Of a DNA stretch of 53,048 bases, positions 16,469-23,293 are shown piece by piece (within the stretch, counting starts at the first letter, position 1; each line of letters opens with the position of its first letter). The position numbers and the translations under genes were made by a program. Under the pieces are notes generated by a model, which had not been told where the DNA came from, ran no database searches, and was given only the letters and a program-made list of their open reading frames with translations. This DNA is from Gammaproteobacteria bacterium (GTDB lineage: Bacteria; Pseudomonadota; Gammaproteobacteria; SZUA-229): positions 1-53,048 of the forward strand of contig JAOULX010000019.1 of assembly GCA_029881795.1 (NCBI GenBank), read 5' to 3'.

Positions 16469-16939
16469 ATGATCTCTGTCAGAACGTTACTTACTCTTCT
16501 CATTTCAATCGGCATGTCCGTGATCTCGGTTTTTATTTATTCGCAGGTCGATCCAAGGCTTGAAATTATCAATCTGAAGAATGAAGAAATTATGCGGCTG
16601 GATAATAAAATTGCTGATTTGGTAGAACAAAATTCTACGCTGGATGTGCAGGTCAGCAGTATTGCGACGGTGGTAAAGTCGAATGAATCGGACTCAGGAA
16701 AGATAAACGATGAATACAAAGTCTGTTTAAGGCAAACAAAGCGTTTAAATAATAAAGTTCGGGCTTTACAATCAGAAGTCGGAGTCTTACAGAATAAAAA
16801 TAAAATCATGAAAGACTACGTGTCGGTCAATAATGATGTAACGTCTCTGAAAGAGCAGATTGAGAATTTAAATAATGAAAAACAGGAGTTAACTGAAAAA
16901 TTGGGTCCAAATATCAATAAAAATCTGATTAGTGAGTAA
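16469..16939 (+). CDS. Membrane-anchored coiled-coil protein, unknown function
   Basis: The 156-residue protein has one N-terminal membrane helix (residues ~5-26) followed by an almost continuous heptad-rich coiled coil (about residues 33-60 and 85-148, rich in Leu/Asn/Lys/Glu). No family was recognised. The architecture (short inside, TM, long coiled coil) suggests a bitopic scaffold with the coil in the periplasm, but the few charged residues flanking the helix make the orientation uncertain. AGGAAA precedes the ATG. It lies between apeB and the HU-like operon. Confidence 0.65.
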   Translation: MISVRTLLTLLISIGMSVISVFIYSQVDPRLEIINLKNEEIMRLDNKIADLVEQNSTLDVQVSSIATVVKSNESDSGKINDEYKVCLRQTKRLNNKVRALQSEVGVLQNKNKIMKDYVSVNNDVTSLKEQIENLNNEKQELTEKLGPNINKNLISE

Positions 16940-17089: not shown

Positions 17090-17119
17090 TTGAATATAGC
17101 CATTTTAGGTCTATATATA
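17090..17119 (+). promoter_or_regulatory. Putative promoter of the HU / HU-LysM operon
   Basis: TTGAAT at 17090-17095 and TATATA at 17114-17119 are separated by 18 bp, 35 bp ahead of the HU-like ATG. The -10 lies inside a perfect 12-bp palindrome TCTATATATAGA (17110-17121). The remainder of the 214-bp gap after the coiled-coil gene shows two AGCGCT-containing stretches (around 16999 and 17057) but nothing I can name. Confidence 0.4.
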
Positions 17120-17153: not shown

Positions 17154-17441
17154 ATGACTACAACTGAAGTAATTAAATTACTGTCAATCCGGCTACAGAT
17201 AAGTCAGGCTGAAGCCCGTCGTTGTCTGCTGCAGGAGCTGGAAATTATATCCACGCATATGAATGCGGAGTCGCAGGTTGTTTTGAGACGATTTGGTACC
17301 TTCGGTGTCAAACAAACAGCAGCCCGCAAAACCTATCTGCCATCTGAAAAAAAATATTACATAACACCCGCCCGTACCGTGCCGTTTTTCCGTGCAGCGC
17401 AAGGCCTGAAAGACTTTGTAAAAAGTTGGAAGCCTGAATGA
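17154..17441 (+). CDS. HU/IHF-family DNA-binding protein (divergent)
   Basis: A 95-residue single-domain protein with the HU/IHF fold: an N-terminal two-helix body, VVLRRFGTFGVKQTAARKTYLPSEKK (beta-arm) and TVPFFRAAQGLKDFV, the HU C-terminal helix. The canonical R-N-P-x-T-G arm tip is replaced by T-Y-L-P-S-E-K, keeping the Pro that intercalates DNA. It is therefore not housekeeping HU or IHF but a diverged paralogue. Its last 4 bases overlap the start of the HU-LysM gene (ATGA), implying translational coupling and possibly a heterodimer. Confidence 0.85.
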   Translation: MTTTEVIKLLSIRLQISQAEARRCLLQELEIISTHMNAESQVVLRRFGTFGVKQTAARKTYLPSEKKYYITPARTVPFFRAAQGLKDFVKSWKPE

Positions 17442-19306
17442 AGCGACTCTATGACAAAGCGCTGATGGAACAAATTGCTAAAGTATATGGCAATGAAATG
17501 ACGTTTTTGTCAGAATTTTCGAAAGCCTTGCTGGATATTATCCGTGAAGGTTTAATCCGAGACGGTCAGGTACGTTTACATCAGTTCGGCACCTTTAAAC
17601 TTAAATGGATGGAATCGCGCAGTGGTGTGAATCCATCTAGCGGCAACAAAATACTGATTCAGGGACGGCCACGGGTTATTTTTACACCTGCAAAACGACT
17701 TAAGGAAGTGGTTGAGCCCAATCCTTTGCCAAGGGTGCCGTGGAGTGAGACAGACAGGGACTCGGTGAACCAGGCAAAAATATCAGTGCCGGCTGTGAGT
17801 CTGACAGCGCAAACAGATAAGGTAAATACGGTATTGTCAGCTATCCCGGTAGTTGCTGCTGTTAAAGTGGCACAAGCTGCTGAAGAACAGGCAGACAGTC
17901 CAGTGAATGATGAACTTATTGCAGAACTGTCGACAGATACCGATGATCAGTTGCTTAGCGAATCTGACAAAATATTGCTTGCTGAGAACAATGAGGCGGA
18001 TGACCAGACTGATAAAACGGAAACAGTGATCGCCGACATCAATGATGAAATTAAGGTGCTTGAGCAGGTTGCTGAAATCCTTAAAAATGAATCTGTAACT
18101 AATAATGCTGAGAAAGTGACAGTCGGTCATGCTGACTATCTTGAGGATGCTGCAGTTAAACGGACAGATTCGTTTCAGGCTTTTAAAGATAGAAATCAAA
18201 AAAACTCATTAGCTCCCGCACTGGAAGAAAAAGATCTGGCTTGGAATGATCAGTCAGTTGTAGATCACATAAAAAAATTGTCCGAGCGACATGCGTTTAA
18301 TTCACCTGAGAAAAGTGAAAAAGCCAGCCCAAAATTTGCGACGCCTGAAATAATTGTTCGTACCGACACACGAAGTGCATTATACGAAACCTCGGATGCG
18401 AAAACGGATCAGGATCTTGATAAAGAGCTGAATTCTGTTTCCAAATTAAATGCCGACCCGCTTGAGACTGATGAGCGACAGAACTATAGAAAACCCTGGT
18501 TTGCACTTGCGGCTGTCGCCATTGTGTTATTGGCGATTGGCAGTTTAATGAATATCTTTACAGCGCCAACCGATCATCAGGCGGCAGGTACTCAGGCTGT
18601 TACCGAATCAGCGTTAGAGACTTCCGATACACAAACTCAGCAGGCGGCCTTAGCCGTCGAAGAGCAAGAAGGGGTGATACCTGAGCAAGAATCTGTGTTA
18701 ACGCAAACTGATGAAGTGCTGCAAACGAATACTGATTCAGCTGAAAAAGTGATTGATACAGAGCTAGCAGGTTTTACTACAGATCAGCCGGCAGTGGTCG
18801 AAACTGAAGAACTGACAGAGAGCGGGCAGTTTGTAGCTGAAAATGATGCGCTGACTGATCAAACCACTGAACTCAATCTGGAATCAGCCAATCAGTTAAA
18901 ACAGATAGAAACAATCGAGAGCACATTTTTCACAGCCAGAGATTACCGCCTGATTAATGGAGACAGTCTTTGGCGTCTGGCTAAAAAATATTATGTAAAT
19001 CCGTTTTACTGGCCACATATTTATCAGGCTAATCATAATTCGATTAATAACCCGGACCGGGTTAAAATAGGCAAGCTGGTGTTGTTGCCAACGATGTACG
19101 GTGAGCCTGATGCGCTGACCAAGCAGGATAAGCACAATATCGCCACCGGCTATTATTATAACTATCTCTATCATAAAGAAAGAGGTAATCCTTATGCTTA
19201 TTTCTCTCTTATCGGTGTTGAAAAATTTGATGCTGATTTATTGATCGAGTACAAAGACGAAATCGCGCGATCTGATATTAAAAATCTTTCATTATTATCG
19301 GAATAA
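17438..19306 (+). CDS. HU domain - transmembrane - LysM fusion protein
   Basis: A 622-residue protein. Residues ~1-92 form a second HU/IHF-like domain (QVRLHQFGTFKLKW, then an arm with N-P-S-S-G close to the canonical N-P-x-T-G, and RPRVIFTPAKRLKEVV). Residues ~93-350 are acidic, low-complexity linker. Residues ~354-374 form a single membrane helix preceded by RQNYRKPW. Residues ~375-500 are again acidic and Gln/Thr-rich. Residues ~502-552 are a LysM domain (DYRLINGDSLWRLAKKYY, then NPDRVKIGKLVLLP). A 70-residue tail contains GYYYNYLYHKERGNPYAY. There is no N-terminal signal, and the positive side of the helix is N-terminal. HU would therefore face the cytoplasm and LysM the periplasm. The inferred role is linking DNA to peptidoglycan. 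I know of no characterised gammaproteobacterial example. Confidence 0.85.
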   Translation: MKRLYDKALMEQIAKVYGNEMTFLSEFSKALLDIIREGLIRDGQVRLHQFGTFKLKWMESRSGVNPSSGNKILIQGRPRVIFTPAKRLKEVVEPNPLPRVPWSETDRDSVNQAKISVPAVSLTAQTDKVNTVLSAIPVVAAVKVAQAAEEQADSPVNDELIAELSTDTDDQLLSESDKILLAENNEADDQTDKTETVIADINDEIKVLEQVAEILKNESVTNNAEKVTVGHADYLEDAAVKRTDSFQAFKDRNQKNSLAPALEEKDLAWNDQSVVDHIKKLSERHAFNSPEKSEKASPKFATPEIIVRTDTRSALYETSDAKTDQDLDKELNSVSKLNADPLETDERQNYRKPWFALAAVAIVLLAIGSLMNIFTAPTDHQAAGTQAVTESALETSDTQTQQAALAVEEQEGVIPEQESVLTQTDEVLQTNTDSAEKVIDTELAGFTTDQPAVVETEELTESGQFVAENDALTDQTTELNLESANQLKQIETIESTFFTARDYRLINGDSLWRLAKKYYVNPFYWPHIYQANHNSINNPDRVKIGKLVLLPTMYGEPDALTKQDKHNIATGYYYNYLYHKERGNPYAYFSLIGVEKFDADLLIEYKDEIARSDIKNLSLLSE

Positions 19307-19317
19307 CCCTATGTCGA

Positions 19318-19977
19318 TTATGATTCGAGCTGCCTGAGTATATCGTCCCATAATATTTTATCTTGTAGTACGACTTTCTTATTTATTTCGTGTATTCCTA
19401 GTCCCTTTTCTGTTGCATGCAGGTAGTTTTGAGTATCTTTTATCTGTGCAATCACCGGTATCTTAAGAGTATTTAAGAAACGTGTTAAAGCCTGGAAGGC
19501 AATCGTATTGGCTTTAACTTTATTGGTAATAATGTTGATGCGGGTATGTTTAGTACGTAGTTTTCCGATGATGAGTAAGTCACGGATAAAGTCTGCTGTT
19601 GAATGAATGTCGATCGATGACGGCAGGACGGGGATAATTACTTCATCGATATTCTGCAGGTTTTCCAGTAAGTCGGTTTCACGTAAGCCTGCCGGGGTGT
19701 CAATAATTACGCGCTGAGTACCTATAGGTAAGCGTAAGTGCCAGCTTTTGTTTTTATTCACAGCCGCTGATTTGTGCGCAGTCACGCCGTATATACCCGG
19801 TACGTTACTGGCACGACTTCGCAGCCAGCGCATACTGGAGCCCTGCGGGTCACAATCAAATAAAGCGGTATCATAGCCGTGGCGGGCATAGCAGCTGGCG
19901 AGGTTGGTAGCAATGGTTGTTTTTCCACATCCCCCTTTTGAATTCATAACGACAATGCGTCTGATAATGTCTGGCAT
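19318..19977 (-). CDS. ParA/MinD-type ATPase
   Basis: The 219-residue protein has the deviant Walker A of the ParA family (KGGCGKTT, residues 14-21), Walker A' DCDPQGSSMRWL and Walker B VIIDTPAGL. It has no N-terminal helix-turn-helix and no obvious ParB-like partner beside it. Such orphan ParAs position chromosomes, plasmids or protein clusters by ATP-dependent binding to nucleoid DNA. It is convergent with the HU-LysM gene (11 bp between stops). That suggests a shared theme of DNA or cell-envelope organisation but is not an operon. Confidence 0.85.
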   Translation of the reverse strand: MPDIIRRIVVMNSKGGCGKTTIATNLASCYARHGYDTALFDCDPQGSSMRWLRSRASNVPGIYGVTAHKSAAVNKNKSWHLRLPIGTQRVIIDTPAGLRETDLLENLQNIDEVIIPVLPSSIDIHSTADFIRDLLIIGKLRTKHTRINIITNKVKANTIAFQALTRFLNTLKIPVIAQIKDTQNYLHATEKGLGIHEINKKVVLQDKILWDDILRQLES

Positions 19978-20152: not shown

Positions 20153-20854
20153 TTATTGCGGAATTTTGTTTCTCAGTTCATCCCGGTCAAACCACCATTG
20201 GTCTTCAACGATGGCGTTAATGATTAGTGCAAAACGAGAGAATAGCTTTTCCTGATTATTAAGTTCGAGCTTTTCTATCCAGAAATCAAGACCAGCCTGG
20301 TCGCTGACATCGCTGTGGCGTTTAGCAACACGGGCTAGCAGATTGATGGTTAAAAACTGCATATTGGCGCGTTTTTTATCATCTTCTGCCCGCACATCGG
20401 CGATGTAATGTGCCACCATAGCAGCAACGGCACCACCGTCCGCTTTGTCGGGCGTTTCATCGACTATATGCTCGAGCATCACATAACTGGTTTGCATTTT
20501 TATAGGGTAGGTGACGGCTAACCAGACTCCCATGCCGAGTGCAGCAATCGAGGCTGGTTGATCACATTGATACAGAATATCGCAGGCTTCTACTGCATCC
20601 TGCCATTGTTCTTCATTTAAAAACAGGTCAAATGCGCCCCGAGCCAGACTCCAGGCCTCTTCACCACGTTCAAGCCCTGCCAGTGTTTCTGCAATATCCA
20701 GTTGTGCTCTGGCCTGTGTTAACTGATCGGCACCGAAGCGCTGCTGTAATGATTCCAGATGATCGAGTTGTTCCTTAAGCTGCTGTTCCAGCATGTCCTT
20801 GTCGCCCAGTTCAGGTGCTGCGGCGATAGGTGAATTACTCTCATTGTCACTCAT
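20153..20854 (-). CDS. Helical repeat (TPR-like) protein of unknown function
   Basis: The 233-residue soluble acidic protein is almost all helical. QARAQLDIAETLAGLERGEEAWSLARGAFDLFL reads like a TPR helix pair (A-x-x-x-L/Y spacing), and a second pair follows around WQDAVEACDILYQ. The C-terminal half (ALIINAIVEDQWWFDRDELRN) is not recognised. A GGAG ribosome-binding site precedes the ATG. I cannot name a family. About 175 bp without a gene separates its stop from the ParA start; that gap holds only an 8-bp AT-rich inverted repeat (GCTTTATT / AATAAAGC). Confidence 0.65.
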   Translation of the reverse strand: MSDNESNSPIAAAPELGDKDMLEQQLKEQLDHLESLQQRFGADQLTQARAQLDIAETLAGLERGEEAWSLARGAFDLFLNEEQWQDAVEACDILYQCDQPASIAALGMGVWLAVTYPIKMQTSYVMLEHIVDETPDKADGGAVAAMVAHYIADVRAEDDKKRANMQFLTINLLARVAKRHSDVSDQAGLDFWIEKLELNNQEKLFSRFALIINAIVEDQWWFDRDELRNKIPQ

Positions 20855-22523: not shown

Positions 22524-22916
22524 ATGACTGAGCAACAGACTGAAGATCCAAGAATGAGAATGACCCGTTATATTATGGGTTTATTAGAATCGTGGGAATT
22601 AAATGCTGAGCAGCAGGTAGGTGTGCTGGCCTTACCTGAAGGTACCCGGACTCGCGTTTTAAGATCGTTTCGTGATGATACCCCACTGCCCGATACCGAT
22701 GATGTTAATACCCGGGTTGAACATATACTCGCTATTGATGATGCCTTACACACTACCTACCCACACAGCGAAAAAATGGGTGCTTTATGGATGCGTCGTG
22801 GCCATCGTCGGTTTAAACAACGCACCCCTGTCAACACCATTATTGAAGATGGTCTACAAGGTCTGGTCTCTGTGCGTATGCATCTCGATTGTTCATGGAT
22901 GAGCTCGTCGCAATAA
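22524..22916 (+). CDS. MbcA/ParS/Xre-type (DUF2384) domain protein
   Basis: The 130-residue protein has an N-terminal helical half (RYIMGLLESWELNAEQQVGVL) like the short non-HTH regions of ParS/MbcA proteins. The C-terminal part, MGALWMRRGHRRFKQRTPVNTIIEDGLQGLVSVRMHLD, fits the DUF2384 pattern (W-x-x-x-x-x-x-F-x-x-x-x-P-x-x-x-I-x-x-G-x-x-G-L-x-x-V). Members are usually antitoxins to RES-domain NAD-degrading toxins. No RES gene is present; instead a receiver-like gene overlaps its stop, so a regulatory rather than toxin-antitoxin role is more likely. Confidence 0.65.
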   Translation: MTEQQTEDPRMRMTRYIMGLLESWELNAEQQVGVLALPEGTRTRVLRSFRDDTPLPDTDDVNTRVEHILAIDDALHTTYPHSEKMGALWMRRGHRRFKQRTPVNTIIEDGLQGLVSVRMHLDCSWMSSSQ

Positions 22917-23293
22917 TGACAAAGCCCCGGCATTTGTTGTCGATTGTGGAACAGGGAGGTTACCCACTTTATGATGCAATTTATCAAAAGGCGGGTTATC
23001 AGGTGACGATGGTTGAAAGTATGCGCAAAGCAGTGGCCGCTATAAAAAAACAGCCGCCTGAAATGATTGTGGCAGAATTCAATTATCAATCAGACTTTCG
23101 TGACCGTACCAGCAGTCTTGAAACCCTGTTAGCATCTATTCAGAAATACCCGGCTACCCGTGTAGTGGTTTTTTATGACCGGGAAAATACCGACAAGCTC
23201 AACCGGCTGCTGGCAGTCAGTGATGTGCACTCGACACTGACTTATCCGATTGATGAAGCGGCACTGGCTGCTGCTCTGGTATCAAGCGGTTAA
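22916..23293 (+). CDS. Degenerate response-regulator receiver-like protein
   Basis: The 125-residue protein has the alternating beta-alpha pattern of a CheY-like receiver (HLLSIVEQ..., GYQVTMVESMRKAVAAIKKQPPEMIVAEF, TRVVVFYDRE, VHSTLTYPIDEAALAAAL). The position expected for the phosphoacceptor Asp reads A-E-F (Glu), and the acidic pair after strand 1 is missing. It probably cannot be phosphorylated normally. The ATG at 22916 overlaps the stop of the DUF2384 gene (TAATG), so the two are translationally coupled. It has no output domain. Confidence 0.65.
   Translation: MTKPRHLLSIVEQGGYPLYDAIYQKAGYQVTMVESMRKAVAAIKKQPPEMIVAEFNYQSDFRDRTSSLETLLASIQKYPATRVVVFYDRENTDKLNRLLAVSDVHSTLTYPIDEAALAAALVSSG

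Follow-up and report, generated by a model that had tools for sequence, protein, structure and literature searches.

In the 53,048-nucleotide contig JAOULX010000019.1 of a gammaproteobacterium of the SZUA-229 lineage (assembly GCA_029881795.1; this whole stretch is called the window below), we found two overlapping genes that encode a small HU-family protein and a large protein combining an HU/IHF domain, one transmembrane (TM) helix and a LysM domain. With somewhat better than even confidence, we read the two genes as a translationally coupled module, the products of which would form an IHF-like HU heterodimer and thereby attach the nucleoid or certain loci to the cell envelope. The first-pass annotation of the window had described the large protein as a single polypeptide and had overlooked the overlapping HU gene directly upstream (17154-17441). 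Its idea of an anchor between the chromosome, or a locus, and the wall remains the best reading, although not in the form of a single-polypeptide DNA binder, since the partner HU is conserved. The pair comprises the following features.

17154..17441, + strand: small HU-family protein of 95 amino acids (aa), presumed partner subunit (PF00216 E 2e-16; 4-base overlap with the next gene)
17438..19306, + strand: HU-TM-LysM protein, intact open reading frame (ORF) with an ATG start, 622 aa
17456..17713, + strand: HU/IHF domain, residues 7-92, arm tip NPSSG (PF00216 E 6.6e-17; fold match; arm proline in 11/11 homologues)
18926..19099, + strand: LysM domain, about residues 497-554 (Pfam, profile match, structure model and superposition)
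19100..19303, + strand: conserved helical extension after LysM, residues 555-622 (confident helices; aligned in 11 homologues)

A small HU gene and an HU-TM-LysM gene form a conserved pair

The large ORF was placed correctly by the earlier annotation (17438-19306, + strand, 622 aa). Its product consists, in this order, of the HU/IHF domain, a first linker, one TM helix, a second linker, LysM and a helical extension of about 70 residues. Homologues were gathered by a contig-level scan and by whole-genome searches with a profile of LysM plus the extension (E up to 1e-12, the window's own genome counted). This yielded 11 loci with a complete HU-TM-LysM gene (the window, L007, L008, L009, L010, L011, L012, L033, L032, L049 and L050), and in all 11 a small HU gene lies directly upstream. 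In the window, the stop codon of the small gene overlaps the start codon of the large one as ATGA; the overlap is 4 bases in 10 of the 11 loci and 1 base in the remaining one. In a twelfth case, G008, the large gene is cut by the contig end and the small HU gene is also there. The cut protein was excluded from the large set and its small HU was retained, giving 12 small proteins.

The surroundings of the pair are unlike each other. TRAP-type transporter genes lie downstream in L009, L010 and L012 (product names read by eye), other genes are found in L032, L033, L049 and L050, and a ParA-like ATPase, again by eye, is the neighbour in the window's genus. As the same pair recurs in differing surroundings, it is a conserved unit. 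The large protein is thus half of a pair of HU proteins, and it is probably a heterodimer of the two, not the large polypeptide by itself, that binds DNA.

The two HU types are distinct from each other and from ordinary HU and IHF

Both window proteins exceed the Pfam cut-off of PF00216 (22.4 bits), the large one with 62 bits and the small one with 60.4 bits. The family matches the large protein in 11/11 homologues, and the small HU lies above the cut-off in 11/11 (39.4-77 bits). In a model of the full-length large protein (mean predicted local distance difference test score, pLDDT, of 57, with 318 of 622 residues below 50), a folded N-terminal HU domain is followed by disordered linkers with a few helices, one membrane helix and a folded C-terminal part. 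Residues 3-97 of this model match solved HU/IHF chains (Foldseek E from 8.7e-6), and superposition on 1p71_B gave Z 7.8 and a root-mean-square deviation (rmsd) of 4.4 over 93 aligned residues, where a Z below 8 may by itself reflect merely a common arrangement. The HU/IHF fold claimed for the N-terminus is therefore confirmed by the PF00216 match (E 6.6e-17) and by Foldseek. Because modelled residues 3-97 match HU and IHF chains, the structure prediction of this region is HU-like, and the objection that it has some other fold falls away.

HU/IHF (DNABII) proteins are characterised by a beta-arm bearing a DNA-intercalating proline. This proline is kept in 11/11 large HU domains and, by eye, in 7/12 small HU proteins. 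Lysine and arginine (K/R) outnumber aspartate and glutamate (D/E) in 11/11 large domains and in 12/12 small proteins. The small HU genes with a missing or short arm are those of L009, L010, L011, L012 and L021; such a subunit would make a one-armed HU heterodimer.

Within one genome, the large and small HU share 21-34% identity. We built a tree of 45 HU domains, comprising 11 large, 12 small and 22 canonical HU/IHF-type sequences. For the canonical set 27 loci were tried; L053, L060, L064 and L065 were not picked up by the search pattern, and L063 was cut short and excluded. A branch with support 100/99 sets the large domains (BIG) apart, another with 95/85 the small ones (SML), and the canonical rows are separated with support of only 83/56. 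The midpoint root serves for drawing only, and a long-branch warning makes the joins between the groups unsure. Moreover, the divergence of the two HU types runs parallel across genomes (r 0.90, 55 genome pairs), a value that shared species history alone would also make high.

Among NCBIfam models, the large HU scores best with IHF-alpha (NF001401, 45.8 bits), far under the cut-off of 111. The small HU scores best with HU-beta (39.8 of 157 bits); it reaches 34.9 of 115 bits with IHF-beta and 31.7 of 111 bits with IHF-alpha. The pair is like IHF (IhfA/IhfB) in having two different HU-fold subunits, the large one closest to IHF-alpha. In contrast to IHF, both lie far below the IHF equivalog cut-offs, the small one prefers HU-beta, the genes overlap, one subunit is membrane-anchored, and other HU/IHF-type genes (named by eye) are found elsewhere in the genome.

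In each of the 8 carrier genomes searched, three strong PF00216 genes (at least 98 bits) lie outside the pair; we read them by eye as HU, IHF-alpha and IHF-beta. One weaker additional PF00216 gene is present in 7 of the 8, and the window's genome has four others outside the pair. As the carrier genomes keep these other HU/IHF-type genes, the module is no substitute for the ordinary proteins. The window's genome also encodes, at L058 1489-1884 (- strand), an HU-fold protein 131 aa long whose N-terminus is rich in lysine, and we assume that the sixth PF00216 gene of the 7 genomes is of the same kind.

Proteins of the Bacteroidetes HU-CCDC81/SPOR type join HU domains to a wall-binding domain, and Burroughs et al. 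(2017) reportedly predicted a role in chromosome partition for them. The pair differs from them in that LysM replaces SPOR and each HU domain has a gene of its own, and neither PF18174 nor SPOR was matched in the pair proteins in Pfam. PF18175 (HU-CCDC81_bac_2), which has a cut-off of 35 bits, matches 10/11 small HU with scores of 14.9-29.9 bits and also 7/8 canonical HU/IHF controls with 15.2-21.2 bits; 7/11 small HU score above the best control. Membership of the small HU in the HU-CCDC81 type was therefore rejected, all scores being below the cut-off and the canonical controls matching too. Judged by these scores, the slight lean towards the HU-CCDC81_bac_2 model is real, and a distant common root with this type, or a shared loss of canonical features, may lie behind it.

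These data bear on the possibility that the HU folds no longer bind DNA and instead form a protein-protein dimer, by which some cytoplasmic partner would be brought to the envelope, as has reportedly been proposed for eukaryotic CCDC81. Loss or shortening of the arm in 5/12 small HU would fit such a role, as would the long branches that set both HU groups of the pair away from the canonical ones, the 7 of 11 small HU that outscore all 8 controls with HU-CCDC81_bac_2 (each below its cut-off), and two conserved helices in the genus-specific linker, which suggest a protein partner. However, the arm proline in all 11 large and 7 of 12 small HU, and the excess of K/R over D/E in all 23 HU domains, speak for DNA binding, and we consider a purely protein-binding dimer distinctly improbable.

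The C-terminal part contains a LysM unit followed by a conserved helical extension

The last 136 residues, modelled from 11 homologues, are predicted with a mean pLDDT of 92 to form a confident LysM unit followed by helices. Thus, the structure prediction of the C-terminal part and the profile match bear out the LysM fold of the first-pass annotation; its C-terminal position does not hold, as about 70 conserved helical residues come after LysM. The LysM model superposed on 7vcm_B, a LysM-containing chain, with Z 6.2 and rmsd 1.1 over 55 aligned residues, on 7r1l_A with Z 4.6 and rmsd 1.5 (46/46 residues aligned), and on 7pvc with Z 5.9 and rmsd 2.9 over 64 aligned residues. A Foldseek search with the model of the C-terminal domain gave no match at E of at most 0.001 (best 0.011). 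For the fold of the extension, comparison with solved structures gave mainly LysM matches over residues 3-87 of the 136-residue model, by which the extension is barely covered.

In G335, a 195-aa protein (L051 7737-8324, - strand) combines a membrane helix and LysM with part of this extension and has no HU domain. The envelope half therefore also occurs alone.

Linkers, membrane helix and predicted topology

Between the two folded ends of the large protein, the following features were recognised.

17720..18496, + strand: acidic, mostly disordered linker 1, predicted cytoplasmic, residues 95-353 (mostly pLDDT below 50; fast-evolving)
18005..18103, + strand: predicted helix in linker 1, residues 190-222 (ten-residue mean pLDDT about 62-81)
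18248..18295, + strand: second predicted helix in linker 1, residues 271-286 (structure model)
18497..18559, + strand: transmembrane helix, residues 354-374 (sole strong hydrophobic segment; helix in the model)
18560..18916, + strand: acidic linker 2, predicted periplasmic, about residues 375-493 (pLDDT below 50 at 375-479)

Linker 1 contains 30 K/R and 53 D/E in 260 residues, and linker 2 contains 2 K/R and 27 D/E in 121 residues. The long acidic first linker noted earlier is indeed present in the window protein and is a trait of this genus (179-260 aa in the 3 genus members, 60-130 aa in the other 8). Summed over the 11 homologues, the N-terminal flank of the TM helix has 33 K/R and 15 D/E, and the C-terminal flank 11 K/R and 25 D/E. 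Because of this summed charge bias, HU is predicted inside and LysM outside. The N-in/C-out topology, with HU in the cytoplasm and LysM in the periplasm, had been proposed before and as a prediction holds across the 11 homologues. The basic residues that had been claimed on the N-terminal side of the helix are evident in that sum and weak in the window protein itself, and L009 has no charge bias around the helix. None of the 11 homologues has a cysteine after the membrane helix.

Constraint is unevenly spread along the pair. By Nei-Gojobori counts of the window against L007, with synonymous sites near saturation throughout, the HU domain has a ratio of nonsynonymous to synonymous substitution (dN/dS) of 0.021, and the small HU and LysM have one of 0.035 each, compared with 0.21 for linker 1 and 0.28 for the membrane helix. 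For the helical extension dN is 0.052 and synonymous sites are saturated. Identity to L007 and L008 is 90% and 85% in the HU domain and 90% and 76% in the extension, against 58% and 48% in the TM segment and 28% and 26% in linker 2. As the HU and LysM ends are strongly constrained and the linkers drift, both ends matter and the middle is a spacer. Within linker 1, identity to L007 and L008 is 61% and 72% over residues 190-222 and 86% and 55% over residues 268-288, compared with 36% and 21% for residues 95-189. This local conservation and the structure model suggest that the two linker helices (190-222 and 271-286) are candidate docking sites for a partner.

The same topology would suit a membrane-embedded one-component regulator acting in the manner of ToxR or CadC, in which LysM would sense wall fragments or the state of the wall, and the HU/IHF pair would act at a small number of promoters to alter transcription or DNA architecture. 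A DNA binder inside and a ligand binder outside are what such a regulator would have. The large HU scores best, far below the cut-off, with IHF-alpha of the sequence-specific IHF, and the rarity and accessory nature of the module fit this idea as well. However, HU/IHF proteins are architectural and are not known to have an activating domain, and the TM segment is poorly conserved (58%/48%, compared with 90%/85% for HU), unlike a segment that transmits a signal. We therefore regard a regulator as unlikely.

The module is rare and patchily distributed

The 11 complete pairs come from gammaproteobacterial genomes with four family labels (f1, f15, f102 and f155). In the window's family, the profile of LysM plus the extension was matched in 8 of 54 genomes, and of the 22 family genomes with completeness of 90% or more and contamination of 5% or less, 6 carry the module. 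In the class sample 6/369 genomes were matched; these include G335, without HU, and G091, with a LysM match alone, neither of which is counted among the 11 complete pairs. The single match in the phylum sample (1/398) is the window's own genome. At E up to 1e-15, matches were found in 1/1, 1/3 and 1/5 genomes of the families of G050, G190 and G137, respectively. Outside the window's phylum, the large protein was covered by one contig scan, which finds close relatives. Taken together, this looks like a rare, patchy accessory module that has often been lost or moved between lineages.

We also considered a mobile or defence origin, and rejected each candidate. Plasmid and phage searches gave HU-domain matches only (2 and 1 records), a viral-contig scan confirmed 0 of 63 candidate stretches, and PADLOC returned nothing for the three proteins tried.

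Genomic neighbourhood of the pair

Two further features flank the pair in the window.

17090..17117, + strand: candidate operon promoter, TTGAAT and TATATA spaced by 16 bp (by eye; block conserved in the window, L007 and L008)
19318..19977, - strand: ParA-like ATPase, convergent neighbour (PF01656 E 4.7e-18, 65.8 bits, cut-off 25.4)

The consensus scan did not list the candidate promoter, and the counts of the promoter and terminator scan were at or below chance (8 found and 8.0 expected; 1 found and 3.1 expected). The ParA-like protein scores 114.5 bits with NF041546, under the cut-off of 180. Its gene adjoins the module in the window, L007 and L008, the same three genus members that have the long acidic linker, and for this reason a ParA partner as in HubP was considered. 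ParA-like homologues (E up to 1e-20) are present in 43 of the 54 family genomes, and some genomes that lack a module match (G029, G025, G033, G007 and G018) carry homologues 56-59% identical; the link also rests on one clade. Given how often such homologues occur where the module is missing, the ParA link was dropped from the interpretation.

A tether of this kind could also position cell-wall synthesis instead of the chromosome, as a division-site or nucleoid-occlusion factor. Noc is such a factor; it binds DNA and membrane and keeps division off the nucleoid. Here DNA and envelope would be joined within one chain, as such a device needs, and LysM proteins often act at division sites. However, inspection by eye of the neighbours, most of which were not subjected to family searches, revealed no divisome gene, and a Noc-like role seems to us very doubtful.

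Several neighbours of the pair are themselves conserved. Just upstream, a gene at 16469-16939 (+) encodes a 156-aa protein with a hydrophobic N-terminal stretch and a coiled-coil-like remainder; its conservation across the genus amounts to 83% in L007 and 66% in L008. The genes at 20153-20854 (-) and 22889-23293 (+) are conserved without a Pfam match at E 0.01 and keep their proximity to the HU pair in other genera (L009, L010, L011, L012 and L034/L035), where a homologue of the latter stands divergently beside the small HU gene. The gene at 22524-22916 (+) has a weak, below-cut-off match to the Xre/MbcA/ParS toxin-binding domain.

Comparison with known systems

By analogy of architecture, the closest counterparts of the pair appear to be HubP/FimV, Rv3852 and the Bacteroidetes HU-SPOR type. 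The pair had none of the membership features that were tested for HubP/FimV, IHF proper and HU-CCDC81-SPOR, and it has PF00216 (DNABII). FimV, with the order LysM, TM, cytoplasmic region, attaches to sacculi by way of its LysM, which is also required to anchor it at the pole, and HubP positions oriC at the pole (PMC12918733). The likeness would lie in a periplasmic LysM, a membrane segment and an acidic, mostly unstructured cytoplasmic region (PMC12918733). In contrast to HubP/FimV, the order is reversed, with HU N-terminal and LysM at 497-554 of 622, the window protein has no strongly hydrophobic N-terminus, and contact with DNA would be direct and not via clients. No TPR/FimV domain was matched by Pfam in the window protein or its homologues.

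Rv3852 of Mycobacterium tuberculosis is described as associated with the nucleoid and anchored through a transmembrane helix at its C-terminus (PMC8233713). By this description, it would resemble the large protein in combining association with the nucleoid and a membrane-helix anchor. It differs in that its anchor is the C-terminal stretch, and neither LysM nor an HU partner gene is mentioned in the cited part of its description (PMC8233713). Among the listed matches in open-licence literature, none described an HU-LysM protein.

Discussion

In the anchoring model that we favour, coupled translation would deliver both HU subunits together, and these would pair into an IHF-like heterodimer at the cytoplasmic face of the inner membrane. 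The flexible linker would let the dimer reach the nucleoid, where it would bind, and probably bend, DNA, and the periplasmic LysM with its extension would hold the wall or a wall-associated complex. More tentatively, with odds that we put well short of even, the pair may be a dedicated two-subunit chromosome-to-wall anchor that grips chosen loci without an intermediate landmark protein, the linker helices of this genus recruiting a further partner.

Several observations weigh against anchoring. On the DNA side, the arm is deleted or shortened in 5 of the 12 small HU, all from one family branch. In the window protein the charge bias around the TM helix is weak, with 3 K/R and 3 D/E in the N-terminal flank and 0 K/R and 1 D/E in the C-terminal flank. 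On the wall side, PF01476 matches the window protein at residues 504-551 with E 0.0016 and 18.8 bits, below the cut-off of 20.9, and matches just 8 of 11 homologues at E up to 0.1 (best 1.9e-6). The closest solved LysM relative of the family profile is the E. coli potassium-binding protein Kbp (E 1.3e-6), and peptidoglycan binding is therefore not assured; next come 6ve2_O (1.8e-6), the chitin-binding effector 4b8v_A (7.6e-6) and the pilus-machine protein TsaP (3jc8, 4.1e-5). The module was not found in 46 of the 54 family genomes, among them G008 with its cut copy and many incomplete assemblies; since most of the family gave no match, it is not a core segregation function. Finally, chromosome segregation is unaffected in P. 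putida without FimV, so the analogy is not general (PMC12918733).

It has long been asked whether bacterial chromosomes are physically tied to the envelope, and how. In the literature considered here, known links between chromosome and envelope depend on landmark or adaptor proteins (HubP; RacA with DivIVA) or on the short membrane-anchored Rv3852. If the anchoring model is true, a single polypeptide would connect DNA, membrane and wall together with a co-encoded HU partner, all within a small movable module. An HU-type heterodimer would then have evolved apart from HU and IHF, with one DNA arm lost in one lineage.

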